Shown: one piece after another, positions 16,814-32,356 of the stretch
Position numbering within the stretch: the first letter of the stretch is position 1
How the letters are laid out: every line of letters starts with the position of its first letter
The notes under the pieces: model-generated
What the model was told of the DNA's origin: nothing
Databases searched by the model: none
What the model saw: the letters and a program-made list of their open reading frames with translations, nothing else
Made by a program: the position numbers and the translations under genes
Source of the DNA: Komagataeibacter swingsii
GTDB lineage: Bacteria; Pseudomonadota; Alphaproteobacteria; Acetobacterales; Acetobacteraceae
NCBI RefSeq assembly: GCF_003207895.1
Contig: NZ_NKUB01000002.1
Span: 310,001 to 374,000 of the forward strand
Direction of reading: 5' to 3'
DNA: 64,000 bases

Positions 16814-17247
16814 CTCGTTCCTGTTGGCAACCTTCTGTCCATGCCGGCATGATACGGAAACACGCCATAACCAGGCAAGAATACATCCATCCCGTAACGG
16901 ATAGCGCCCCATGGGAAAAACCTGCATGATCAGGCCGCAACTTCCCCTTCCCTGCCGCGTATAGGCAACTGGCGGTATCGCGCGTCATTCGATGCATTCA
17001 TGCCGGAATACGTAAACGGTTGCCTGATAACAACCTGCTGATGAAAAACAAAAGTTTCCGAATAGTGCCTTTTGCGAAAAAAGGCGGCGTTTCATGAAGC
17101 CTTTTGAAAAAACATCACCAGAAACTTCCTTACGGTTGCATGCGGCCCTTCATGAAGCATTGATCGGTTATTGCCTGTCAATGCGGGCTGTAATGACACA
17201 GATCGCCTCCGTGCAAAATAAAACGAACAGGAACGGGAATACCAGTC
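16814..17247. other. Intergenic region upstream of nuo operon
   Basis: About 430 bases between the divergent GST and nuoA genes. It holds a small hairpin (GCCTTTT-GCG-AAAAAAGGC, 17067-17085) and a dispersed repeat copy. The nuo promoter must lie here, but I cannot point to a convincing -35/-10 pair. Confidence 0.45.
17083..17135 (+). repeat. Dispersed GGCGGCGTTTC hairpin repeat
   Basis: Reads GGCGGCGTTTC, GAAGCCTTTTGAAAAAA, then CACCAGAAACTTCCTT. The same succession of blocks is found at 36062-36120. The copy sits in the presumed leader of the nuo operon, about 115 bases upstream of nuoA. Confidence 0.6.
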
Positions 17248-17673
17248 ATGGAAAATATTTCCAATATATGGTCATTACCCCTCTATGCTGTCGCCATAGG
17301 GCTGCTTCTGGCCTGCATGCTGGGGCTGTCCGCCATAACCGGCACCCGGCGGGATGGCAGGGCCATGGGCCGTTCCCTGTCCATGCCTTTTGAATCCGGC
17401 ATTGTCCCCACGGGTTCGGCGCGCCTGCGATTGCCTGTACAATATTACCTGGTGGCCATGTTCTTTGTCATTTTTGATGTTGAAACAGCCATCCTCGTGA
17501 CATGGGCGACAGTCGTGACCGAAACGGGATGGATCGGTTATGGCGCGGCCCTTGTCTTTACTGTCTTTCTGGCCATGTCCCTTGCCTATCTGTGGCGTGC
17601 CGGGGCGCTGGACTGGGGGCCACGGGTCCGCCCACGCCAGGGGCCGGATGCACGAAAGGACCGGGCGGCATGA
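17248..17673 (+). CDS. nuoA: NADH-quinone oxidoreductase subunit A
   Basis: A 141-residue membrane subunit of complex I with three hydrophobic segments (about 11-33, 68-90 and 97-118). The family-typical [19 protein letters not shown] (about 47-65) and FVIFDVETA (about 73-81, with the conserved acidic residues near the quinone channel) are present. It follows an AGGAACGGG ribosome-binding site and begins the operon. Its stop overlaps the nuoB start (ATGA). Confidence 0.95.
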
Positions 17674-18305
17674 ACTGGTCGCTGTCTTCCCCCGATGCCG
17701 CCCGGCATATGCCGCCTTCACCCGGCTTCAGCGAAACCCTGCGCCGTAACCTGGTCATGGGCCGGTTGCAGGATTTCGTGGCATGGGGGCAGAAAAACGC
17801 CATCTGGCCGCTGAATTTCGGCCTGTCATGCTGTTATGTGGAAATGGCGACAGCGTTCACCAGCCGCTTCGACATTGCCCGCTTCGGCTCCGAAGTGCTG
17901 CGCGCAACACCACGCGAAGCCGACCTGATCGTCATTTCCGGCACCGTGTTCGTCAAGATGGCCCCGGTCATCCAGCATCTGTACAACCAGATGCTGGAGC
18001 CGCGATGGGTCATCTCCATGGGGTCATGCGCCAATTCCGGTGGCATGTACGACATCTACAGCGTCGTGCAGGGGGTGGACAGTTTCCTGCCGGTGGATGT
18101 GTATGTACCTGGCTGCCCGCCACGTCCCGAGGCGCTGCTGGAGGGGCTGCTGCTGCTGCAGAAATCCATCGGCACGCAGCGCAGGCCCCTTAGTTGGCTG
18201 GTGGGGCCGCAGGGCGCCCAGCCCGTGACACCGCCCAGCCTGCGCGATGAAAAGCGCGCCCACCGCCAGGGCATGCGCGACCTGCGCACGCCCGATGGAA
18301 TCTGA
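17670..18305 (+). CDS. nuoB: NADH-quinone oxidoreductase subunit B
   Basis: A 211-residue peripheral-arm subunit that carries iron-sulfur cluster N2, the last electron carrier before quinone. The tandem cysteines in [11 protein letters not shown] (about 49-59), the cysteine in [10 protein letters not shown] (about 112-121) and the one in [12 protein letters not shown] (about 147-158) supply the four ligands. The start is the ATG overlapping the nuoA stop; the frame is open further upstream inside nuoA but without similarity. The C-terminal tail is rich in charged residues. Confidence 0.95.
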
Positions 18306-18309
18306 CGCC

Positions 18310-19845
18310 ATGCCCTCCACCCTGGCCGCCACCCGCGAACCGGGCCTTGCGGAGAGAATTTCAGGCCATCTTCCCAACGGGGCGCTGGCCACCCAGCCTG
18401 CGCGCGACGGGGTATGCGCCATCTGGATTGCGGCGGATCACCTGCGCCCCACCCTTGCTGCACTGAAAATCTGGGCTGCCACATCCCTCATGCTGCTGGA
18501 TCTTACGGCCATAGACGAACGCGAACGCACCCACCGCGACGGACAGCCACAGGCCGCGTTCACGCTGGTCTATCACCTGATCTCGCTGACCACCCGCGCG
18601 GATGAGGTGCGCATCAAGGTCCCCCTTGGCGCCACCGCCCCCACCCTTCCCAGCATCTGTGACCTGTGGCCGAACGCCAACTGGTATGAACGTGAGGTGT
18701 GGGACCTGTTTGGCATTTACTTCGACAACCATCCCGACCTGCGCCGCATCCTGACCCCGCCCACATGGACCGGGCACCCGCTGCGCAAGGACCACCATGC
18801 CCGCGCCACCGAAATGCCGCCCTACAGCCTGACCGAGGCAGATGAAGCACGCGAACAGGACGCCATGCGCCTTGACCCGTCCGCATGGGGCATGCGGCGG
18901 CATAGTGAACACAGCGACTTCATGTTCCTCAACCTCGGCCCCAACCATCCCAGCGTGCATGGGATGTTCCGCATCATGCTGCAACTCGAAGGCGAGCGGA
19001 TTGTCGAAGCCGTGCCCGATATCGGCTTTCACCATCGCGGCGCGGAAAAGATGGGCGAACGCCAGTCCTGGCATGGCTACATCCCCTATACCGACCGGGT
19101 GGACTATCTTGGCGGGGTCATGAACAATTTCCCCTATGTGATGGCGGTCGAGACACTGGCGGGGATTACCGTGCCGCCACGCGCGCAGATGATCCGCGTC
19201 ATGCTGGCGGAACTGTTCCGCATCGCCAGCCACCTCGTGTTCTACGGCACCATGGCGCAGGATGTGGGGCAGCTTTCGCCAGTCTTTTACATGTTTACCG
19301 ACCGCGAACGCGTGTTCGGGATCATCGAGGCGATATGCGGCTTTCGCATGCACCCGGCATGGTTCCGCATTGGCGGCGTGGCCATGGACCTGCCCGCAGG
19401 GTGGGAAGGACTGGTCCGCGCCTTTCTTGATGACATGCCGGGGCGGCTGGACGAATACGATTCCATGGTCATGCGCAACCCGATCTTCCGCGCGCGGACG
19501 AAGGGAGTCGGCGCCTATACCACGGCGGAAGCCGTTGAATGGGGTATCACCGGGCCGGGGCTGCGCGCCACGGGTCTGGCGTGGGATTACCGCAGGCATG
19601 CGCCCTATGCCTGTTATGGCCAGCTTGAATTCGACATTCCCACCGGCACCAATGGCGACTGTTACGACCGGGTTGCCGTGCATGTGGCGGAAATACGCCA
19701 GAGCCTGCGCATCATCCGCCAGTGCGTGGACAACATGCCCGCAGGCCCGGTCAAGGCCGACCACCCGCTGACCACCCCGCCGCCAAAGGCGCGGACGATG
19801 CATGACATCGAAACCCTGATCCACCATTTCCTGGGCGTAAGCTGA
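18310..19845 (+). CDS. nuoCD: NADH-quinone oxidoreductase fused subunit C/D, interrupted
   Basis: Fused 30-kDa (NuoC, about residues 1-170) and 49-kDa (NuoD) subunits as in E. coli complex I. Motifs include [39 protein letters not shown] and [10 protein letters not shown], all lining the quinone and N2 region. The frame stops at TGA (19843-19845) right after HFLGVS. In E. coli the next codon encodes Trp (VSWGPVMP). The same frame continues from GPVIPPGE to the normal C-terminus VDR at 20076. The stop is therefore a TGG-to-TGA change, a read-through codon or a sequencing error. Without the last 76 residues NuoD should be non-functional. The start could also be the in-frame ATG at 18295. Confidence 0.9.
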
Positions 19846-20076
19846 GGGCCGGTCATTCCACCGGGGGAGGCACGAGCCAGCATCGAAGCCACGAAAGGCG
19901 TCAATACCTATACCCTTATCAGCGATGGCGGGACCACATCCTACCGCACCCGCATCCGCACCCCGTCCTTTGCCCACCTGCAGATGATCCCGCTGCTCAG
20001 CCGCGGCATCATGATCGCGGACCTGATCGCGATTCTGGGCAGCATCGACTTCGTCATGGCCGATGTTGACCGCTGA
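19846..20076 (+). pseudogene. nuoCD: C-terminal part of NuoCD after in-frame TGA
   Basis: Continuing in the frame of nuoCD past the TGA, these 76 codons plus a TGA stop encode the conserved NuoD end: [27 protein letters not shown] and [13 protein letters not shown]. No further stop or frameshift is present, so the segment shows no decay. NuoE starts at 20063 inside it, the normal arrangement when nuoCD is full length. Without read-through there is no obvious ribosome-binding site to start it independently. Confidence 0.88.
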
Positions 20077-20554
20077 AGCCCCCCTGCCCGCGCCCGTGCG
20101 GGCGGAAATCCTTGCCCTTGCGGCGCAGGAGCCGCACCCGCGTGGCGCGGGTGTCGCGGCCCTGCGGCTGGTGCAGGCCCATTTTGGCTGGGTCAGCACC
20201 GCGCATCTGCGCGAAGTGGCCGCCCTGCTGGGCATGTCGGCCGATGATCTGGATGGCATCGCCACCTGTTTCAACCTGCTGTTCCGCCGGCCGGTCGGGC
20301 GGCATGTCATCATGCTGTGCGACAGCGTTACGTGCTGGATCATGGGGCGCGAGCCACTATGCGCCCATCTGTGGCTGACACTGGGCATAAGGCCGGGAGA
20401 GACCACGGCCGACAACGCCATCACGCTGCTGCCCACGGTCTGTATCGGCCACTGTGACCACGCCCCGGCCATGCTGGTGGACAACGCCCTGCATGGGAAT
20501 GTGACGACCGCAACGCTCGACCACCTGATCGACACGCTGGGGCACACGCCATGA
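20063..20554 (+). CDS. nuoE: NADH-quinone oxidoreductase subunit E
   Basis: A 163-residue thioredoxin-fold subunit that binds the [2Fe-2S] cluster N1a in the NADH-dehydrogenase module. The four ligands appear as CDSVTC (C-x4-C) and CIGHC (C-x3-C). [17 protein letters not shown] is typical of the family. Its ATG overlaps the last codons of the full nuoCD reading frame by 14 bases, so its translation may depend on ribosomes reaching the true end of nuoCD. The stop overlaps the nuoF start by 4 bases. Confidence 0.94.
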
Positions 20555-21849
20555 CGCCCGCTTCCGAACGGCCCCTGACCGCCATGATCGACCCTGCCGC
20601 AGGCCCACCGGACTGTGCGGCATATGAACGTCATGGCGGCTGGCAGGCCACGCGCAGGGCACTGGGCCGCCTGGCCCCGGCCGAGATCATTGACATGGTG
20701 ACACGCTCGAAACTGCGCGGACGTGGGGGCGCGGGTTTCGGGACCGGGCAGAAATGGAGCTTCGTGCCGAAGGAGTCCGCAACCGAGCGCCAAAAATACC
20801 TGATCGCCAATGCCGATGAAATGGAGCCGGGCACCTTCAAGGACCGCTGGCTGCTTGAGGGCAATCCCCTCCAGTTGATTGAGGGAATGATCCTTGCGGC
20901 CTATGCGGTGCAGGCGGGACATGGCATCATTTTCCTGCGTGGGGAATACCACCTTGCCTGCACCCGCCTGCACCGCGCGATCGGGGAGGCCCGGCAACTG
21001 GGCTGGCTGGGCGAAAACATCCTTGGCTCCGGCTTCGGTCTTGACATCCATGTGCATTCCAGCGCCGGGCGCTACATATGCGGCGAGGAAACCGCCCTGC
21101 TGACCGCGCTGGAAGGCCGCCGGCCGACACCGCGCAGCAAGCCGCCCTTTCCCCAGACCGGCGGCCTGTGGGGCGCGCCCAGCGTGGTGAACAATGTCGA
21201 GACCCTGTGCAACCTGCCCCACATCATCACCAACGGGCCGGAATGGTTCGCGGGCCTTGGGCTGGGGGAGGATGGGGGCACCAAGATCTATGGGGTCAGT
21301 GGCCGGGTGGCAAGACCGGGCGCATGGGAACTGCCCATCGGCACGCCGCTGCGCCAGATCATCGAGGAGCGTGCAGGCGGCATGCGTCCGGGCTACCAGT
21401 TGCGCGCCCTGCTGCCCGGCGGGGCGTCCACCGCCTTTCTCGACGCCGCAGCGCTCGATGTCGCCATGGACTACGGATCGGTGGAAAAGGCGGGCAGCAG
21501 GCTTGGGACCGGCATGGCCATCATTCTGGATGACCGGACCTGCCCCATCGGCATGATCCGCAACCTCGAACATTTCTTTGCCCAGGAATCCTGCGGGTGG
21601 TGCACCCCATGTCGTGACGGGCTGCCATGGGTGGAACGCCTGCTGGACGCGATCGAGGATGGAACGGGGCAGGATGAGGACATGGACCAGCTTGCCCGCC
21701 ATGCCCGCATGCTGGGGGCGCCCGGCCGCACCTTCTGCGCCCATGCGCCGGGGGCGATGGCGCCGCTTGCCAGCGGTCTGAAACTGTTCGCCGCCGATTT
21801 TGCCGCCCACATCCGGCAGCGCCGCTGCCCGCAGCAATCGGGGGCGTGA
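20551..21849 (+). CDS. nuoF: NADH-quinone oxidoreductase subunit F (NADH/FMN)
   Basis: A 432-residue catalytic subunit that oxidises NADH. The FMN/NADH-binding motif RGRGGAGFGTG (about 56-66) and YICGEETALL (about 175-184) are intact. Cluster N3 ligands are ESCGWCTPCR (about 348-357) and TFC (about 395-397). Size matches the family. The ATG overlaps nuoE by 4 bases, and the stop lies at the nuoG start, consistent with tight coupling in the NADH module. Confidence 0.95.
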   Translation: MTPASERPLTAMIDPAAGPPDCAAYERHGGWQATRRALGRLAPAEIIDMVTRSKLRGRGGAGFGTGQKWSFVPKESATERQKYLIANADEMEPGTFKDRWLLEGNPLQLIEGMILAAYAVQAGHGIIFLRGEYHLACTRLHRAIGEARQLGWLGENILGSGFGLDIHVHSSAGRYICGEETALLTALEGRRPTPRSKPPFPQTGGLWGAPSVVNNVETLCNLPHIITNGPEWFAGLGLGEDGGTKIYGVSGRVARPGAWELPIGTPLRQIIEERAGGMRPGYQLRALLPGGASTAFLDAAALDVAMDYGSVEKAGSRLGTGMAIILDDRTCPIGMIRNLEHFFAQESCGWCTPCRDGLPWVERLLDAIEDGTGQDEDMDQLARHARMLGAPGRTFCAHAPGAMAPLASGLKLFAADFAAHIRQRRCPQQSGA

Positions 21850-21851
21850 CC

Positions 21852-24578
21852 ATGACCAGCATCCGCATCGATGGCCGGGACTGCCCGACCCGCGCCGGCA
21901 TCAACCTGCTGCAGGCCTGTCTGGAAGCGGGAGCCAGCCTGCCTTATTTCTGCTGGCATCCCGAACTCGGTTCCGTGGGCGCGTGCCGCCAGTGCGCCAT
22001 CAAACAGTTCAGCGGGCCGGATGACACAAAGGGCCGCATCGTGATGGCCTGCATGACGCCGGTCAGTGAAAATACCATCATATCCATTGACGACCCGGAA
22101 GCGCGGGATTTCCGCGCCAGTATCATTGAATGGATGATGGTCAACCACCCCCATGACTGCCCCGTGTGCGAGGAAGGCGGCGAATGCCACCTGCGGGACA
22201 TGACAGTCATGACCGGGCACAATACCCGCCGCTACCGCTTCACCAAACGGACGCACCGCAATCAGGATCTCGGGCCGTTCGTGAAGCATGAGATGAACCG
22301 TTGCATCGCCTGCTACCGCTGCGTGCGCTTCTATCGTGATTACGCGGGCGGGGACGATCTGGCGGTCTTTGCATCACATGACAACGTATATTTCGGCCGC
22401 GCCGAAGATGGCACGCTGCAGAATGCCTTCAGCGGCAACCTGGCGGAAATCTGCCCCACCGGCGTGTTTACCGACAAACCCTTTTCCGCCATCTATACCC
22501 GTAAATGGGACCTGCGTGGCGCGCCATCGGTATGCGTACACTGCGCGGTGGGCTGCAACACCATAGCCAATGCGCGTGAGGAGACCCTCCGCCGTGTCCT
22601 CAACCGCTACAATGCCGATGTCAACCGCTACCTGTTGTGCGACCGGGGCCGGTTCGGGCATGGTTTTGTCAACGCACCAACGCGTATCCGCACGCCGCTG
22701 CGCGGCATTGGCGGGCAGCAGGTGCCCATTTCCATGGCCGACGCCCTGACAACCTTCGCCCGCATGGCAGCACAGGGCCGGATCGTGGGCATAGCCTCCA
22801 CCCGCGCGGCGCTGGAAACCTGCTTTAGCCTGCATGCGCTGGTGGGGCCGCAGAATTTCTGTACCGGCCAGACGCGGCACGAACAGGAATGCACGGAACT
22901 GGCCCATGCCCTGCTTGCCCGCCATCCCGGCGCCCTGCCCACCCTGCATGAAATGGAAAGCGCGGATGCCGTGCTGGTTCTGGGCGAGGACGTATGCGCA
23001 ACCGCCCCCCGGCTTGGCCTGTCGCTGCGGCAGTCGGTGCGTCAGGCATCCTTCCATACGGCGGATGACGCCAAAGTGCCACGCTGGATGGATGCGGCGG
23101 TACGCACGCTGGGGGCACAATGCCCATCCGGCCTGTATGTGCTGACACCCGCGCCGACCGATCTGGACGGCGTGGCGGCACAAACCCGGCGCGCCGCCCC
23201 TGATGACATCGCCCGGCTGGGCTTTGCCATCGCCCACGAAATTGACCCCGCCGCCCCGCCTGTCATTGACCTGATGCCAGACGACATGCAGCTTGCCGCA
23301 CGTATTGCACATACGCTTGTGGCAGCCAGAAAGCCGCTGGTCGTATCGGGCATGCAGTACGGCGCGCCCGCACTTATACAGGCAGCCAGCAGTATTGCCG
23401 CGGCCCTTGCGCGCGCCACGCCTGAAGCCGGCCTGTCGCTGGTGCTGCCGGAGTGCAACAGCATGGGGCTGGCCATGATGGGGGGGCTGTCGCTGGAAAC
23501 GGTGATGGAACAGGCACGGGCGGGCGAAATTTCCACTCTGGTCATCGTGGAAAATGACCTGACCCGCCACCTGTCCCAGGCGGATGTGGCCGAACTGGTG
23601 GCGGCGGTTCCCGATATCGTCGTGATCGACCATACGGCGACACCGCTTTGCCAGCAGGCCGGCCTTGTCCTGCCCGTTGCGGCCTTCAGCGAATGCAGCG
23701 GCACGCTGGTCAGCCAGGAAGGCCGGGCGCAACGTTTTTTCCAGGTGGTCTTTCCCCCCGCCCCCATACAGGCCGGCTGGCGCTGGATTCAGGCGCTGGC
23801 CCGCAGCCTTGACCCACCCGCGCCGCATATGACGGGCCTGACCGGCTGGCAGGACCTGGATGACGTACTAGCCGCGCTGGCGCCAGTGTTTCCCCATCTT
23901 GCCCCGGCGACACAGGCGGCGCCGGGGGCGGATTACCGCATGAATGGCCAGAAACTGCGCAGCCAGACCTACCGCGCCAGCGGGCGGACCGTCATCCGTT
24001 CGTATATAAGCGTGCGCGACCAGCCGCCACCAAGCAGCCCGGATACCCCGTTCAGCAGTTCCATGGAAGGCGCCTATGGGCCGGACATGCCCGCAGCACT
24101 GGTTTCGGGTTATCAGGCATCGCCATGGAATTCGGTTCAGGCGCTCAACCGTTTTCAGCACGAAATCGGTGGCCCCCTGCGTGGCGGGGACTGCGGCATC
24201 CGGCTGTTATCCCGCGCCGGGCATCCTGATGCGAAAGCGGCTTATGCCACGGATATTCCCCGCCCCCATGCTGTGCAGGCTGATACCGTTCTGGTACTGC
24301 CCGATACGCGCCTGTTCGGCAGTGATGAACTGAGCACGCTCTCCCCACCCGTCATGGCGCGCGCAACCGCGCCAACGCTGGGCCTGCCTGCCAGCATGGT
24401 GACATCGGGCCGCATGGTGCTGCATCTGGACGACGGGCCGCATGTGCTGCCCGTGGAACCTGTGCCTGGGCTGCCTGTGGGCATTGCCCTGTGCCCGGCG
24501 CACATGGTCGCGCGCGCGTTCCGTTTTCCCCAAATGGCCCGGCTGGAAACCGTACCAGATGAAGAGGAAAGGTCATGA
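21852..24578 (+). CDS. nuoG: NADH-quinone oxidoreductase subunit G
   Basis: About 908 residues, the same length as E. coli NuoG. The N-terminal [2Fe-2S] domain has YFCWHPELGSVGACRQC. A His-Cys cluster (HPHDCPVCEEGGEC) and the CIACYRC 4Fe-4S site follow. An additional motif, CVHCAVGC with a later Cys in LLCDRGRF, corresponds to the extra cluster N7 found in E. coli-type NuoG. The C-terminal molybdopterin-oxidoreductase-like domain is complete but catalytically unused in complex I. The ATG after GGGGGCG was preferred to the GTG at 21846. Confidence 0.94.
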   Translation: MTSIRIDGRDCPTRAGINLLQACLEAGASLPYFCWHPELGSVGACRQCAIKQFSGPDDTKGRIVMACMTPVSENTIISIDDPEARDFRASIIEWMMVNHPHDCPVCEEGGECHLRDMTVMTGHNTRRYRFTKRTHRNQDLGPFVKHEMNRCIACYRCVRFYRDYAGGDDLAVFASHDNVYFGRAEDGTLQNAFSGNLAEICPTGVFTDKPFSAIYTRKWDLRGAPSVCVHCAVGCNTIANAREETLRRVLNRYNADVNRYLLCDRGRFGHGFVNAPTRIRTPLRGIGGQQVPISMADALTTFARMAAQGRIVGIASTRAALETCFSLHALVGPQNFCTGQTRHEQECTELAHALLARHPGALPTLHEMESADAVLVLGEDVCATAPRLGLSLRQSVRQASFHTADDAKVPRWMDAAVRTLGAQCPSGLYVLTPAPTDLDGVAAQTRRAAPDDIARLGFAIAHEIDPAAPPVIDLMPDDMQLAARIAHTLVAARKPLVVSGMQYGAPALIQAASSIAAALARATPEAGLSLVLPECNSMGLAMMGGLSLETVMEQARAGEISTLVIVENDLTRHLSQADVAELVAAVPDIVVIDHTATPLCQQAGLVLPVAAFSECSGTLVSQEGRAQRFFQVVFPPAPIQAGWRWIQALARSLDPPAPHMTGLTGWQDLDDVLAALAPVFPHLAPATQAAPGADYRMNGQKLRSQTYRASGRTVIRSYISVRDQPPPSSPDTPFSSSMEGAYGPDMPAALVSGYQASPWNSVQALNRFQHEIGGPLRGGDCGIRLLSRAGHPDAKAAYATDIPRPHAVQADTVLVLPDTRLFGSDELSTLSPPVMARATAPTLGLPASMVTSGRMVLHLDDGPHVLPVEPVPGLPVGIALCPAHMVARAFRFPQMARLETVPDEEERS

Positions 24579-25528
24579 CATATTCAGCGTTCTTCACCAT
24601 CATTCTCACGCCACTGGTCATCCTTGGCCTTGCCACCATGCTGACATGGGTTGAACGGCGGCTGCTGGGGTTGTGGCAGGACCGGCATGGCCCCAACCGC
24701 GTGGGGCCGGGCGGCATGTTCCAGGCCGTGGCGGATGGAACCAAGATCCTGTTCAAGCAGGACTGGATCCCGCCCTTTGCCGACCGGGGCGTATTCATCC
24801 TTGCGCCTGTCATCGGCATGATGACAGGGCTGCTGCCCTTTGCCGTCATTCCCGTCACGATGGGCATGGGCATTGCGGGTGACATGAATGTCGGGCTGCT
24901 GTTCATCCTCGGCATGATGGGGCTTGGGGTCTATGCGGTGGTGCTGGCCGGGTGGGCGTCGAACAGCAAATACGCGCTGCTGGGCGGCATGCGGGCGGCG
25001 GCACAGATGATCAGCTACGAAGTCTTCATGGGGCTTTCCCTGCTGGGCGTGGTCATGATGGCGGGGTCATTCAGCCTGCACGATATCGTGGCGGCGCAGG
25101 CGGGGCTGTGGTTCATCATCCCGCAATGCCTCGGCTTTGGCGTGTTCATGCTGGCCGGCATTGCACAGACGCACCGTCTGCCCTTCGACCTGCCCGAAGG
25201 CGAGAACGAACTGGGGGCGGGGTTCCATACCGAATATTCGGGCATGAAACTCGGTATGTTCTTCATTGCCGAATATGCCGGGATCGTTCTGGTCTCAAGC
25301 CTTGTGACCACGCTCTACCTTGGTGGCTGGCGCGGGCCGTTCCTGCCCCCCGCCCTGTGGTTCGCGCTCAAGGCCGGGGCCATGGTGGTATTTTTCATCC
25401 TGCTGCGCGCCAGCCTGCCCCGCCCGCGTTATGACCAGTTGATGGCGCTGGGCTGGAAGATCCTGCTGCCGCTTTCGCTGTTCAATGTCATGGCGACCGG
25501 AACCATCCTCATGCTGCGCGCGTCCTGA
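24575..25528 (+). CDS. nuoH: NADH-quinone oxidoreductase subunit H
   Basis: A 317-residue membrane subunit forming the quinone chamber at the junction with the peripheral arm. Eight or so hydrophobic segments and signature loops are present: [21 protein letters not shown] (near 28-48) and the acidic [16 protein letters not shown] (about 205-220) followed by EYSGMKLG. It overlaps nuoG by 4 bases and abuts nuoI. Confidence 0.95.
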
Positions 25529-26070
25529 TGACACGCCTGTTGCAAAGGCATTCCCCCATGCTTGGTACCCTGCGCACCCTGTTCCTGACGGCGCTGCATG
25601 CCTTCCACCGGCGCGCGACCGTGCAGTATCCCGAACAGAAACCATACCTGCCGCCACGCTATCGCGGGCGGATCATCCTGTCGCGCGATCCCGACGGGGC
25701 GGAGCGGTGCGTTGCGTGCAACCTGTGCGCCGTCGCCTGCCCGGTGGACTGCATAAGCCTGCAGAAAACCGAAGCCGACGGGCGGTGGTACCCGGAATAT
25801 TTCCGCATCAACTTCTCGCGCTGCATTTTCTGCGGTTTCTGCGAGGAAGCCTGCCCCACCTACGCCATACAGCTTACCCCTGATTTTGAAATGGGCGAAT
25901 ACACGCGGCCCAACCTTGTTTATGAAAAGGAGGACCTGCTGATAAGCGGGACCGGGAAATATCCCGATTACAGTTTCTACCATGTCGCGGGCATTCCCGT
26001 TCCCGGCAAGGCGCGTGGCGCGTCCGAGCGCGAACGCCCGCCGGTCGACCTTCATTCCCTGCTGCCGTAG
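25528..26070 (+). CDS. nuoI: NADH-quinone oxidoreductase subunit I
   Basis: A 180-residue ferredoxin-like subunit carrying clusters N6a and N6b. Two canonical motifs are seen: [12 protein letters not shown] (about 62-73) and [12 protein letters not shown] (about 101-112). An N-terminal amphipathic segment should anchor it at the membrane. The start overlaps the last base of nuoH, and nuoJ follows after 5 bases. Confidence 0.95.
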
Positions 26071-26075
26071 CCATC

Positions 26076-26570
26076 ATGCATGCCCTGGCCCTCCTTGCTG
26101 CCAGTGTGACCGTTATGGGGGCCGTCATGGCCATGACCCGGCGGGTTGCGGTGCATGCGGTGCTTTACCTGGTGGTGACGCTGCTGGCGCTGGCGACAGT
26201 CCTTGTCATGCTGGGCGCGTCATTTGCCGCGATGCTGGAAATCATCATCTATGCCGGTGCGATCATGGTGCTGTTCGTCTTTGTCATCATGATGATCAAT
26301 CTGGGCCAGCCGGACAGCGCGCGTGAAAAGGAATGGCTGCGCCCGCGCGCATGGTGCGGGCCGGGCGTTCTGGCCACCATTATGTGTGCCGAACTGCTCT
26401 ATTGCCTCAACCCGCCATCCGGGCCTGCACCGGCCCCCATTACGGCGCATGACGTGGGGCTAAGCCTGTTCGGCCGCTACGTGCTTATGGTCGAACTGGT
26501 GTCGTTCCTGCTGCTGGCCGGCCTGGTCTCGGCCTTTCATATCGGGCGCAACCGGGTGGGAGGACGCTGA
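26076..26570 (+). CDS. nuoJ: NADH-quinone oxidoreductase subunit J
   Basis: A 164-residue membrane subunit with about five hydrophobic helices. The family-typical IIYAGAIMVLFVFVIMMINLG (broken here as IIYAGAIMVLF and VFVIMMINLG, about 60-80) includes the flexible third helix that links quinone reduction to proton movement. It lies between nuoI and nuoK with almost no spacing. Confidence 0.94.
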   Translation: MHALALLAASVTVMGAVMAMTRRVAVHAVLYLVVTLLALATVLVMLGASFAAMLEIIIYAGAIMVLFVFVIMMINLGQPDSAREKEWLRPRAWCGPGVLATIMCAELLYCLNPPSGPAPAPITAHDVGLSLFGRYVLMVELVSFLLLAGLVSAFHIGRNRVGGR

Positions 26571-26571
26571 C

Positions 26572-26895
26572 ATGCCGGCCTTTTCCTTCAACGATACCCT
26601 GCTGCTGGCCACAATCGTGTTTTCGGTCGGGCTGGCGGGCATTCTGGTCCGGCGCAACATGGTGTTCATGCTGATGGCGCTGGACATCATGCTCAACGCC
26701 ACGGCCCTTGTGTTCGTGGCGGCGGGCGCGCGCTGGCATGATGCGACGGGGCAGGTGATGTTCGTACTGGTCCTGGCCCTCGCCGCCGTGGAAACGGCCG
26801 TGGGGCTTGGCATCATCATGTGCCTGCATGCCCACGGACGCCCCACGCTGGACGCCGACACCGGCAACCTTCTGGGGGGACAGGGCCGTGGGTGA
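26572..26895 (+). CDS. nuoK: NADH-quinone oxidoreductase subunit K
   Basis: A 107-residue, three-helix membrane subunit. The conserved helix MVFMLMALDIMLNA and the later AAVETAVGLGI with its membrane glutamate are present; these acidic sites belong to the central proton channel. The stop overlaps the nuoL GTG start by 8 bases. Confidence 0.94.
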   Translation: MPAFSFNDTLLLATIVFSVGLAGILVRRNMVFMLMALDIMLNATALVFVAAGARWHDATGQVMFVLVLALAAVETAVGLGIIMCLHAHGRPTLDADTGNLLGGQGRG

Positions 26896-28855
26896 GATCC
26901 TGCTTCCCCTTCTTATCCTCTGCCCGCTTGTGGCGTCCATGATCATATCTGTTTCCGCAGGCCGCGTGGGGACATGTGCCATCGGGGCGATCGCCTGCGT
27001 CGGGGTAGGGCTTTCCGCCATTCTGGGCATCATCCTGTCTGTCATGCTCCTGTCCGGGCCTGCGGCGGGCGTATTGCCGGTGGTGTTGTGGCGCTGGATT
27101 CATGTCGCGGGATTTTCGGCGGATATCGCCCTTACGCTGGACCGGGTTTCCATGGTCATGGTCCTCGTCGTCACGGTGGTGGGGCTGCTGATCCATGTCT
27201 ATGCCGTGGGCTACATGCGCGAGGATCCGGGGATCGCGCGCTTTTTCAGCTGCATGACGCTGTTCGTGGCGGCCATGCTGGTGCTGGTGCTGGCGTCCGA
27301 CCTGCTGTGCCTGTTCATCGGGTGGGAAGGCGTGGGCCTGTGCTCCTACCTGCTGATCGGGTTCTGGTATGACGACCCGGCCAATACCGCTGCGGCCCGC
27401 AAGGCCTTCTACATGACCCGCATGGGGGATGCGGCATTGCTGTGCGGGCTGCTGCTGCTGGCGACGGCCGCCGGTTCCCTGCATATCGGGGCCGTGCTGG
27501 CCGCGGTGGCGGATGGGCAGGTCGCCCCGTCCGGCGTCAATGTGGCGGCACTTTTCATACTGGTGGGCGCACTGGCCAAATCGGCGCAGGTCCCGTTCCA
27601 GACATGGTTGCCGGACGCCATGGCCGGGCCGACGCCGACTTCCGCCCTTATCCACGCGGCCACCATGGTGACCGCGGGCGTCTACCTGATCGCACGGCTG
27701 CATGACCTGTTCGCCATGGCCGCCCCCGTCATGGCGCTTACGGCCGTGCTTGGAACGCTGACGCTGCTTATGGCGGCCTGCACGGCGATGGTGCAGTCCG
27801 ACCTCAAGCGCATCCTTGCATGGTCCACGATCAGCCAGCTTGGTTACATGTTCCTCGCCCTTGGGTGCGGGGTGTGGCAGGCGGCGCTGTTTCACCTGAT
27901 GACCCATGCCTTTTTCAAGGCGCTGCTTTTCCTTACGGCTGGCGCCGTCATCATGCGCGCGGGACACGAACAGGATATTTTCCGCCTTGGTGGCCTGCGC
28001 CACGCCATGCCGGGACTGACCGCCGCCTTTGTTGTGGGCGCATCCGCGCTGGCCGGCCTGCCGCTGGTGACGGCGGGGTTCTACAGCAAGGAAATGATCC
28101 TGTCGGGTGTATGGCATGTCCATTTCGGCCTGACGCGGGAATGGACCCTGAGCGGGCATCCGTTATGGGGGATGGCGCTGCTGGGGGCCTTCCTCACCGC
28201 ACTGTATATTTTCCGCTGTGTTTTCATTGTCTTTTGCGGAAAACCGGGAACCGTGGCCACGGGCCGGACGTCACGCCTGATGGGCATTCCGCTGGGTTGC
28301 CTGTGCTTCCTCTCCCTGTGTGGCGGAGTGATTGAAATGCCCGATACGCTTCCCCCCCTTCACCTGTTCACTGCCCTCCTTGACCCGAAAACGCCGTTAT
28401 CACATGCGGATGAACCGGTCTGGCTTGTGCTGGCGGGGGCGCTCGCCCCCCTTGCCGGGCTTGGGGTCGCCCGGGTGCTGTGGGGGCGTGCAGCGCCTGT
28501 CATGCGTGAAATACCCGGACAGGCGGCCATCACCCGCCTTGCCCGCGCCGGCTGGGGCATGGATGCGCTGTATGACCTTGTGTTCGTCCAGCCCTTCCGC
28601 CTGCTGACGTGGCTTGCGCACCATGACATCCTAGACCAGGCCATAACCGGGACGGGGCGGATGACGCGGGCCATCAGTGGCCGGGTTTTCCGGGCTAGGG
28701 CCGGTTTTCTGGACAAGCTGGCCGTATGGGGAACGCGGGCGCGCGGATGGGCGGGACACCTGCTGGGCCGGTTGGATAATGGCCGTGTGCGGTGGTACGC
28801 GGCATGGATTGCAGGCGGGCTGTGCGCGGGGCTGGCCATGGCGGTGCTGTCATGA
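26888..28855 (+). CDS. nuoL: NADH-quinone oxidoreductase subunit L
   Basis: About 655 residues, an antiporter-like proton-pumping subunit with a long C-terminal lateral helix. WEGVGLCSYLLIGFWYDD contains the key glutamate, and KSAQVPFQTWLPDAM and TPTSALIHAATMVTAG are standard family motifs. The start is taken as GTG at 26888 because GEILLPLLILCPL is where the first helix begins; the frame upstream lies inside nuoK. The stop overlaps nuoM (ATGA). Confidence 0.93.
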   Translation: MGEILLPLLILCPLVASMIISVSAGRVGTCAIGAIACVGVGLSAILGIILSVMLLSGPAAGVLPVVLWRWIHVAGFSADIALTLDRVSMVMVLVVTVVGLLIHVYAVGYMREDPGIARFFSCMTLFVAAMLVLVLASDLLCLFIGWEGVGLCSYLLIGFWYDDPANTAAARKAFYMTRMGDAALLCGLLLLATAAGSLHIGAVLAAVADGQVAPSGVNVAALFILVGALAKSAQVPFQTWLPDAMAGPTPTSALIHAATMVTAGVYLIARLHDLFAMAAPVMALTAVLGTLTLLMAACTAMVQSDLKRILAWSTISQLGYMFLALGCGVWQAALFHLMTHAFFKALLFLTAGAVIMRAGHEQDIFRLGGLRHAMPGLTAAFVVGASALAGLPLVTAGFYSKEMILSGVWHVHFGLTREWTLSGHPLWGMALLGAFLTALYIFRCVFIVFCGKPGTVATGRTSRLMGIPLGCLCFLSLCGGVIEMPDTLPPLHLFTALLDPKTPLSHADEPVWLVLAGALAPLAGLGVARVLWGRAAPVMREIPGQAAITRLARAGWGMDALYDLVFVQPFRLLTWLAHHDILDQAITGTGRMTRAISGRVFRARAGFLDKLAVWGTRARGWAGHLLGRLDNGRVRWYAAWIAGGLCAGLAMAVLS

Positions 28856-30360
28856 CCCCCCTGCCCGCCCTTGTGCTGCTGCCCATCGTGGGTGGTGGGC
28901 TGGCATGGCTGGCCGAGCGCATCCAGCCCCATACCGCCAGCCCCGCGCGCGATGCATCATGGTGGGTGGCGCTTGGCATCCTGATTGTCGAAACACTGCT
29001 GCTTGTGCTGGTCACGGTCCGCCATCCCGACCATGCGGGACCGTGGCTGGGGCATTTTTCCACGCCATGGATCCCGGCCATGGGCATCGCGGTCAGGCTG
29101 GACATGGATGGCCTTTCGCTGTCGCTGATCTGGCTTTCGCTCATCCTGTGCTTCCTGTGCCTGTTTCTGGCCACCCGTCAGGTCACGGTCAATGCCGGCG
29201 CGTTCCATTTCCTTTTCCTTGCGACCCTTACGGGCATTATCGGTACGTTCCTGGCTACTGACCTGTTCCTGTTCTTCTTTTTCTGGGAACTGATGCTGGT
29301 GCCGATGTTCGTGCTGATTGCCGCATGGGGGCATGAGGACAGGCAGCGCGCCGCCATGAAGTTTTTCATGTTCACGCAGGGCAGCGGCCTGCTCATGCTG
29401 CTGTCCATCCTTGGCCTGGTCATTGCGCATTATCGCGAAAGCGGCGTGCTGACGTTTGATTACTTTACGCTGGCCCGCACGCCATTGTCCCCTGCCCTGT
29501 CCATGCTGCTCATGCTGGGGTTCTTCACCGCCTTTGCCGTCAAGCTGCCTGTCGTGCCGGTCCATGTCTGGCTGCCCGATGCCCATACACAGGCGCCGAC
29601 GGCGGCCAGCGTGCTGCTGGCGGGCATCCTGCTCAAGACCGGGGGGTATGGCATGATCCGGTTCAATGTCATGCTGTTTCCCGATGCGGCCAGCCGTTTT
29701 GCCCCCATCGCCATGGGGCTTGGCGTTGCGGGGATCCTGTACGGGGCGTGGCTGTCGTGCGCGCAGGATGATGTCAAGCGCCTGATTGCCTATAGCAGCA
29801 TAAGCCACATGGGTTTCGTACTGCTTGGCATCTTTACTGGCTCGCGCATCGGGATGCAGGGGGCGATCATACAGATGCTGGCCCATGGGCTGGGCACGGC
29901 GGCGCTGTTCCTGGTCGCGGGCGCCATTCAGGAGCGGCTGCATACACGCGACATGCACCGCATTGGCGGGCTGTGGGCGGCCATGCCACGCCTGTCCAGC
30001 ACGGGGCTGTTCTTTGCCGTGGCCGCGCTGGGCATGCCGGGACTGGGTAATTTCACGGGCGAATTCCTTGTCCTGCTGGCGACATGGCATGTCAGCCCCA
30101 CCATCGCGACATTGACGACGGCGGGGCTGGTCCTGTCCGCGATCTACGCGCTGCGGATGGTCAACCGCATATTCCTGGCGGCCGCCCGGGCTGACCTGCG
30201 ACCCGTACGGGACATCCCGGCCCGGCAGATGGCGGTTTTCGCCTGCGTCATGGCCTTCCTGGTCGTGCTGGGCCTGTACCCGCAGCCTTTCATGACGTTT
30301 TCGACGCCATCCCCCCTGCCGGTTACGGATGTAACCGGCCAGACGGCAGCCACACCATGA
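28852..30360 (+). CDS. nuoM: NADH-quinone oxidoreductase subunit M
   Basis: A 502-residue antiporter-like proton-pumping subunit. FFFWELMLVPMFVLI, KLPVVPVHVWLPDAHTQAPT and AYSSISHMGFVLLG are present with their conserved charged residues. The ATG overlapping the nuoL stop is the start; about 20 more codons upstream are open but belong to the nuoL 3' end. The stop overlaps nuoN by 4 bases. Confidence 0.95.
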   Translation: MTPLPALVLLPIVGGGLAWLAERIQPHTASPARDASWWVALGILIVETLLLVLVTVRHPDHAGPWLGHFSTPWIPAMGIAVRLDMDGLSLSLIWLSLILCFLCLFLATRQVTVNAGAFHFLFLATLTGIIGTFLATDLFLFFFFWELMLVPMFVLIAAWGHEDRQRAAMKFFMFTQGSGLLMLLSILGLVIAHYRESGVLTFDYFTLARTPLSPALSMLLMLGFFTAFAVKLPVVPVHVWLPDAHTQAPTAASVLLAGILLKTGGYGMIRFNVMLFPDAASRFAPIAMGLGVAGILYGAWLSCAQDDVKRLIAYSSISHMGFVLLGIFTGSRIGMQGAIIQMLAHGLGTAALFLVAGAIQERLHTRDMHRIGGLWAAMPRLSSTGLFFAVAALGMPGLGNFTGEFLVLLATWHVSPTIATLTTAGLVLSAIYALRMVNRIFLAAARADLRPVRDIPARQMAVFACVMAFLVVLGLYPQPFMTFSTPSPLPVTDVTGQTAATP

Positions 30361-31811
30361 TCGGGCATGATGTCTTCCTGCCAGCCCCGCTGCTGGCCGT
30401 CCCTTCGGGGATCATGGTCATGCTGGCCGCCACGGTGTGGCGCCGGTCGGCGGGACGCAGCCTTGCATGCGCGATGGTGACGCTGCTGCTGGCCCTTGCC
30501 GTCGTGGGGCGCCATACGGGCGGACGGCCCGATAATGGCGACAGCCTGTTCATCCAGGATCGCTGGACGAGCTATACCGCCGCCCTGATCATATTTTCCA
30601 CCCTGTGCATCCTGCTCATGTCATGGCGGGACAGGGGGCATGACGGGACCACGCGGGTCGATGAATATTCCCTGCTGTTCATGCTGGGCACGCTTGGTGC
30701 GCTGGCCATGGTATTCAGCGCCAATTACATGCCGTTTTTCCTGGGACTGGAAATACTTGGCGTCTCCATCACCGGGCTTGCGACCTTTCGCTACCGTCCT
30801 GTCATGGCAGGGTGTGAGGCCGCGATGAAGTACCTGATCCTGTCAGGGGTATCGTCCGCCATTTTTCTGTTCGGCACTGGCCTGGCCTATGGCGTTACGG
30901 GGTCCCTGCGGTTCACGCCACCCGTCGCGGCAGGCGGGATGCCCGCCGCATTGCCGGTTGCCGCCACGGTCATGGTTCTTGCCGGCATGTTCTTCAAGCT
31001 GTCCGCTGCCCCCTTCCATATGTGGCTGCCGGACGTGATGGAAGGCGCACCCGTTCCGGTGGCGGCATTTGTGGCCGTGGTTTCGAAAATCGCGATATTT
31101 TCAGCACTTGTCCGCTATTTCGGAACAGGGGCGCAGCCTCCGTTCCTCAATGATATCGTATCTGTTGTCATTATCCTGACCATTATGGCGGGCAACCTGC
31201 TCGCCCTGCGCCAGACCAGCCTCACGCGCCTTATGGCCTGTTCATCCATTGCGCATGTAGGATACCTCCTGATCGCGTTCCTTTGTCCCGGCCATGTGCA
31301 ATCGGGGGCCATAACCGTCTATCTTGCGGCCTATGCCGCCAGTACGCTGGGTGTATTCGCGACCATGACCGCCTTTGCCAGCCCGGACGGACCGGATGGC
31401 ACACGCATCGCACAGTGGCGGGGACTGTTTTTCAGCCGCCCGTTCCTGGCGTCAGCCATGGCGCTCATGCTGTTTTCGCTTGCGGGCATCCCACCGGGCA
31501 TCGGTTTTCTTGCGAAATTCGAGGTCGCTGCAACCGGCGTCGAACACCAGCGTGACGTGCTGCTGTGCACCCTCATAATCGGCAGCATTATCGGGCTGTA
31601 TTATTACCTGAACATTATCCGTATCATGATGACGGCGCCATTGTTACCTGCCCATCCCCTGAAGCGGCATGCCCGCCCGGAACTGGCGGCGCTTGTCATC
31701 GTTCTGACCATAATCGTGGTGATCGGGGGGCTTTTTCCCGCCCGCGCCATCCACCCGCTGCTTCCCGCGCCCCCTGCCCCGCCTGGACTGCCGGACGGGA
31801 TGACGCATTGA
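30357..31811 (+). CDS. nuoN: NADH-quinone oxidoreductase subunit N
   Basis: A 484-residue third antiporter-like subunit, last of the 13-gene complex I operon. Recognisable segments include FFLGLEILGVSITGLATF, AAMKYLILSGVSSAIFLFG, KLSAAPFHMWLPDVMEGAP and ACSSIAHVGYLL. It overlaps nuoM by 4 bases. A CBS-domain gene follows after 44 bases with no terminator between them. Confidence 0.94.
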   Translation: MIGHDVFLPAPLLAVPSGIMVMLAATVWRRSAGRSLACAMVTLLLALAVVGRHTGGRPDNGDSLFIQDRWTSYTAALIIFSTLCILLMSWRDRGHDGTTRVDEYSLLFMLGTLGALAMVFSANYMPFFLGLEILGVSITGLATFRYRPVMAGCEAAMKYLILSGVSSAIFLFGTGLAYGVTGSLRFTPPVAAGGMPAALPVAATVMVLAGMFFKLSAAPFHMWLPDVMEGAPVPVAAFVAVVSKIAIFSALVRYFGTGAQPPFLNDIVSVVIILTIMAGNLLALRQTSLTRLMACSSIAHVGYLLIAFLCPGHVQSGAITVYLAAYAASTLGVFATMTAFASPDGPDGTRIAQWRGLFFSRPFLASAMALMLFSLAGIPPGIGFLAKFEVAATGVEHQRDVLLCTLIIGSIIGLYYYLNIIRIMMTAPLLPAHPLKRHARPELAALVIVLTIIVVIGGLFPARAIHPLLPAPPAPPGLPDGMTH

Positions 31812-31855
31812 CGGGACCGGTTTTTGGTTATCCAAAACATGGAAAGGATTGTCCC

Positions 31856-32356
31856 ATGTCCTCTCGTGTCTTTCATATTCTGGCGCAGAAAGGCCGTACG
31901 GTCATTACCGTCAGGGCGGACGATCCCATCCTGAGCGTCGCCGCCACGCTGGCGCGGCATAATATTGGCGGCGCACCCGTTCTTGGCCCGGATGGGCAAC
32001 TGGTTGGCCTTGTATCGGAAAAAATGATTGTCCATGCCCTGTCCCGGCATGGCGCGGACATAACGACCCTGACCGCAGGGGACATCATGGCAAGGGACAT
32101 ACCGACCGCAACACCCGATGACAGTATTTATGATATTGCCTGCCGCATGACGTATTCCCGCAACCGGCATGTACCCGTTCTGGAAAACGGGAAACTGGCG
32201 GGGCTGGTCAGTATCGGGGATATCGTCAAGCTCCGTGCCGAAAATGCGGAACAGGAGGCACAGGAACTGCAGGACTACGTGACAGGCAGCGACCATGCCG
32301 CAGTCCAGCCCCCCAATGACGTGCCGCCCATGCAATGCGGAAGAAAGCAGGACTGA
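31856..32356 (+). CDS. CBS-domain pair protein
   Basis: A 166-residue soluble protein made of two CBS motifs (about 15-70 and 80-140). Examples are ADDPILSVAATLARHNIGGAPVL and RHVPVLENGKLAGLVSIGDI. Paired CBS domains commonly sense adenine nucleotides or NAD(H). The ATG follows AAAGGATT. It lies 44 bases after nuoN and may be cotranscribed, which would fit a role in energy or redox sensing, but no partner is known. The open frame extends far upstream inside nuoN without similarity, so the internal ATG is preferred. Confidence 0.85.
   Translation: MSSRVFHILAQKGRTVITVRADDPILSVAATLARHNIGGAPVLGPDGQLVGLVSEKMIVHALSRHGADITTLTAGDIMARDIPTATPDDSIYDIACRMTYSRNRHVPVLENGKLAGLVSIGDIVKLRAENAEQEAQELQDYVTGSDHAAVQPPNDVPPMQCGRKQD

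Follow-up and report, generated by a model that had tools for sequence, protein, structure and literature searches.

A probable recent nonsense mutation in nuoCD of a second, horizontally moving complex I operon in an acetic acid bacterium

Background

The locus described here raises the question of why the fused nuoCD gene of a complex I operon ends at a TGA, in the middle of a frame that continues behind it. A preliminary description had left three readings side by side, namely a recent loss of complex I, a sequencing error, or UGA read-through as Trp. The window, i.e., the whole stretch of DNA analysed, comprises 64,000 nucleotides (G000:C36:310001-374000) and belongs to the draft genome of an acetic acid bacterium of Komagataeibacter type (G000; 3.73 Mb, 113 contigs). 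Its relevant features are the following:

17248..31811, + strand: accessory E. coli-type complex I operon nuoA-B-CD-E-F-G-H-I-J-K-L-M-N (from ORFs and gene order in relatives)
18247..19845, + strand: truncated nuoCD, 532 aa (ORF ending at the premature TGA)
19843..19845, + strand: TGA where the Trp codon TGG is expected, residue 533 (from relatives' codons and the 7awt_D alignment)
19846..20076, + strand: 76 more nuoD-domain codons and the natural TGA, conserved (from in-frame reading and tail conservation)
20063..20554, + strand: nuoE, overlapping the natural nuoCD end (ORF)
20551..21849, + strand: nuoF, open here; interrupted by an insertion in G001, the sister species (from ORF and relatives)
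21846..31811, + strand: nuoG to nuoN, all open (from comparison with relatives)

Results

The interrupted frame

The nuoCD gene opens at 18247 and its TGA (19843-19845, exactly where it had been placed in the preliminary description) follows directly after HFLGVS. If this TGA is read as W, the frame remains open for 76 conserved codons (GPVIPPGE...FVMADVDR) up to the TGA at 20074-20076, and the ATG of nuoE (20063) lies within this extension, before the natural stop, both as described earlier. In the alignment with the best solved match, chain 7awt_D (E 3.4e-238), the motif VSWGPVMP is found at the stop site, confirming the wording given for E. coli NuoCD, and residue 533 corresponds to residue 520 of that chain as counted on the printed alignment. 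The chains of 7awt and of the entries in its group (7z7s, for example) we take to be E. coli NuoCD. The Complex1_49kDa domain match extends to 20073, such that the stop falls within the domain; the truncated protein scores 837.7 bits, just below the cut-off of 840 for NCBIfam NF008728 (NuoCD), and its match ends at profile position 521 of 598.

The remaining 12 nuo genes of the operon are all open. The same order of all 13 genes is found in ten of the 11 genus genomes fetched; in the eleventh, G001, nuoF is split over two contigs. A small CBS-domain gene is situated downstream of nuoN in the window.

Comparison with relatives

Two sources supplied the relatives compared, namely the 11 further genus genomes in which NuoCD was matched and the best 80 out of at least 589 confirmed database loci; at least one record occurs twice (L034 is G002). 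Homologues in which NuoD is a separate protein, those belonging to the primary complex I (L001, L016-L033), have Glu aligned at the site and were left out. All 91 read TGG (Trp) at the site of the stop, including the 11 other copies of the genus, and TGA is found in the window alone. A conserved Trp codon replaced by an in-frame TGA, through a single base change in a gene otherwise under selection, had been claimed beforehand; the relatives' TGG, the conserved tail and the open operon genes bear this out. Among the best 80 of at least 589 loci, the closest named relatives are Komagataeibacter europaeus (90% identity; identical to G002) and Novacetimonas cocois (88%).

Mean identity to the window across the 91 relatives amounts to 0.81 in the 76-residue tail vs. 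0.77 in the rest of NuoD, and 20 of the 76 tail residues are identical in every relative aligning there (at least 85 of 91). Since conservation of the tail equals that of the remaining NuoD sequence, the stop cuts off conserved protein, and the natural end has not moved; judged by this conservation, a chance open frame behind the stop is excluded.

None of the 11 other genus genomes possessing nuoCD has an internal stop in it. A stop flagged at nuoCD residue 19 of G005 precedes the start of the NuoCD match in that genome, and those flagged in four relatives' genomes concern positions past nuoK residue 103. At sites invariant in the 11 others, NuoCD of G000 exhibits six further private changes; ten of the others have between 0 and 5, and the distant genome G010, with the longest branch, has 22.

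Beyond the genus, 299 genomes of the family were examined, and nuoCD is broken in two (G000 and G298) of the 38 with a match. In G298 (L248, G298:C34:154000-158500) the match goes no further than residue 357, and the gene reads as frameshifted around residue 350, through either decay or an indel error. G043, considered as a second case of an internal TGA in the family, was discarded, as its TGA lies at the N-terminal edge, ahead of the probable start, and the gene retains the Trp.

Selection on the operon and age of the stop

Values of w were obtained from pairwise Nei-Gojobori distances and the three-point formula for 12 genes (nuoF excluded; 4244 gap-free codons, 12 genomes); the bootstrap comprised 20 resamplings, with two outgroups for this set. 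On the terminal branch of G000, w is 0.201 (bootstrap sd 0.018) vs. 0.140-0.196 (mean 0.173) on seven other tips. The G000 value is the highest of the eight branches, for the 12 genes as well as for nuoCD alone. These figures suggest no clear relaxation of selection on the G000 branch; a slight one is possible, given this rank and the six private changes in NuoCD. As terminal w lies near that of the other tips, the loss is placed close to the tip of the branch: assuming that an inactivated operon drifts at w = 1, this one has been inactive over about 3% of the G000 tip and hardly over more than 8%, and on these sequences decay could, within error, be slightly older than the tip. With the other 12 genes open and relaxation unclear, the stop appears to be recent, perhaps private to one strain (this species being sampled by one genome), or, less likely, a base error.

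Decoding of UGA

G000 possesses one tRNA-Trp, with anticodon CCA. Of the 18 further genus genomes, 16 have a tRNA-Trp identical to it over 77 bases and two have one that is 99% identical, such that it matches relatives without this TGA. No UCA anticodon was found among all 46 typed tRNA matches of G000. RF2 is full-length, with the SPF and GGQ motifs, and has no residue private to G000 among the 19 genomes.

Concerning stops elsewhere, no other in-frame stop was found in those window genes for which G001 or G011 allowed a comparison (parts of 83-49226). The scan was confined to ORFs that span at least 100 aa, reach 60% identity and differ mostly at synonymous sites; it detects in-frame stops and not frameshifts, and a badly decayed gene would drop out. 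The other stops it listed lie upstream of gene starts or belong to antisense frames, as judged by eye from their coordinates. Neither the tRNAs nor RF2 nor the further window genes compared thus lend support to a change of the genetic code.

The primary complex I of the same genome

G000 also encodes another complex I, complete in its 14 subunits, with nuoM detached: nuoA to nuoL and nuoN are situated at C25, and a lone NuoM at C113. All its subunits exceed a curated family cut-off, except NuoA, which matches NuoA models at E 4e-30 but stays below the NCBIfam cut-offs (104.6 vs. 155 bits). In the primary cluster (L236, G000:C25:323500-343400) nuoM is missing between nuoL and nuoN, an arrangement that also appears in the clusters of G004, G012 and G017, judged from ORFs. 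The full NuoM (L240, 1084-2625; 513 aa) is encoded alone, flanked by a MutL_C gene and one of gyrase-B type. Since the gene set for another complex I is present, complex I has not been lost from the genome. The suggested recent loss of complex I thus holds for the accessory operon and fails for the genome, in which this second cluster and the detached nuoM encode all 14 subunits.

A different break in the sister species

In the marker tree, based on prfB and the primary nuoD loci (G017 placed by prfB alone), G001 is the sister of G000 with 100% support. It reads TGG at the site of the nuoCD stop, and its nuoF is divided over two contigs, one with codons 1-133 and the other with codons 127-432; a 14-bp core is common to both junctions. 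Phage-type genes lie on both sides of the split: a Phage_integrase (PF00589) gene adjoins one junction and a KilAC antirepressor gene is found on the other side, and YqaJ and ERF recombination genes are present as well. To judge from these genes and the junctions, nuoF of G001 is broken by an integrated phage-like element. At least L165 1-8484 and L221 59-1036 belong to this element, which is situated inside nuoF of the accessory operon with the 14-bp repeat at its two ends. The nuoCD stop in G000 and the nuoF insertion in G001 mean that in two sister species the operon is broken in two different ways. A lesion ancestral to both is ruled out, as G001 has TGG and the other break.

Distribution of the accessory operon

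Accessory-type nuoCD is found in 12 of the 19 genus genomes and is absent from seven; nuoG occurs in the same 12. In the nuo tree, G012 groups with G017 and G018 at 100%, which is not the case in the marker tree. Over the compared stretches, the window resembles G012 and G017 at the DNA level only in the operon (around 17137-32178), and G018 in the operon and a separate 5-kb piece. Both window flanks are found in G001 next to its nuo pieces; in G003 and G008 the upstream flank adjoins theirs. This patchy and tree-discordant distribution suggests transfer of the operon between species. Window positions 17137-32178, including the CBS-domain gene, look like one movable block, with flanks varying among several species and conflicting trees.

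Discussion

The locus is most probably explained by a real and very recent TGG>TGA nonsense mutation affecting the nuoCD gene of a second complex I that is dispensable and moves horizontally. As in a nonsense pseudogene, the stop stands where homologues have a sense codon, and the homologous frame runs on beyond it. If the base in the assembly is real, translation would be terminated by RF2 at residue 532; without its last 76 residues, the NuoD half would form no working module, and NuoCD would be unstable or fail to assemble. Translational coupling to nuoE would probably be lost and translation of NuoE reduced, the accessory complex I would not be assembled, and NADH would be oxidized by the primary complex I.

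The most serious competitor, although an improbable one, is a base error in the draft assembly, with TGG as the true codon and an intact operon. It fits a draft in 113 contigs and an operon that otherwise looks functional; however, the scan yielded no further in-frame stop, which gives no indication of a generally error-prone assembly and led us to set aside general assembly noise, and the dispensability of the operon makes a real mutation plausible. Decoding of UGA as Trp, by a suppressor tRNA or programmed read-through, such that full-length NuoCD is made, would account for the intact frame past the stop and for selection without clear relaxation, but we regard it as very unlikely: the tRNA-Trp with CCA is nearly invariant in the genus, no UCA anticodon is present among the 46 tRNA matches, RF2 has no private residue, the natural nuoCD stop 231 bases downstream is TGA too, and the relatives have no stop at this codon, which gives no hint of an evolved read-through signal. 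Neither the tRNA set nor RF2, proposed at the outset as places to look for changes, nor the other window genes compared lend read-through support. That UGA is read as Trp often enough for a working second complex I, with the stop as a dial on its amount, seems a shade less likely still. Least credible is a 532-aa NuoCD still functional in a modified complex; part of the quinone site presumably lies upstream of the stop and is retained, which would count for such a protein, yet it lacks 20 residues invariant across relatives.

The nonsense mutation thus looks like ordinary early gene decay and not like a new genetic code, and this plain case replaces the tempting, unsupported claims of recoding and of complex I loss. 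A mobile, redundant respiratory operon is apparently at the first step of decay here, the copy of the sister species being broken by a different event. Counts of nuo operons in acetic acid bacteria are not counts of working complexes.

A literature search found no paper joining nuoCD, a premature stop codon and complex I, and the only one found to name Komagataeibacter together with nuoCD is PMC12361115. Among known systems, E. coli NuoCD (7awt, 7z7s and 7p61; NF008728) is the same fused subunit as that encoded in the window, whereas the window copy lacks the Trp and the last 76 residues; 7P61 is given as an E. coli structure in the excerpt of PMC12361115. For Ga. diazotrophicus, an excerpt of PMC4596401 describes two nuo operons, one possibly acquired by horizontal transfer. 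The copy of strain PA1 5 (L041) is 79% identical to the window NuoCD, in likeness to the second nuo operon of acetic acid bacteria; compared with that operon, as far as the excerpt describes it, the window copy is broken in nuoCD. In Komagataeibacter saccharivorans, the nuo set is plasmid-borne according to the excerpt of PMC12361115, and it represents the same operon type, since in two plasmid records the match covers 60% of the nuoA-CD query, with 84% identity at the DNA level. Unlike this plasmid set, the window copy has the TGA and is situated on a contig of at least 374 kb that carries no plasmid assignment.
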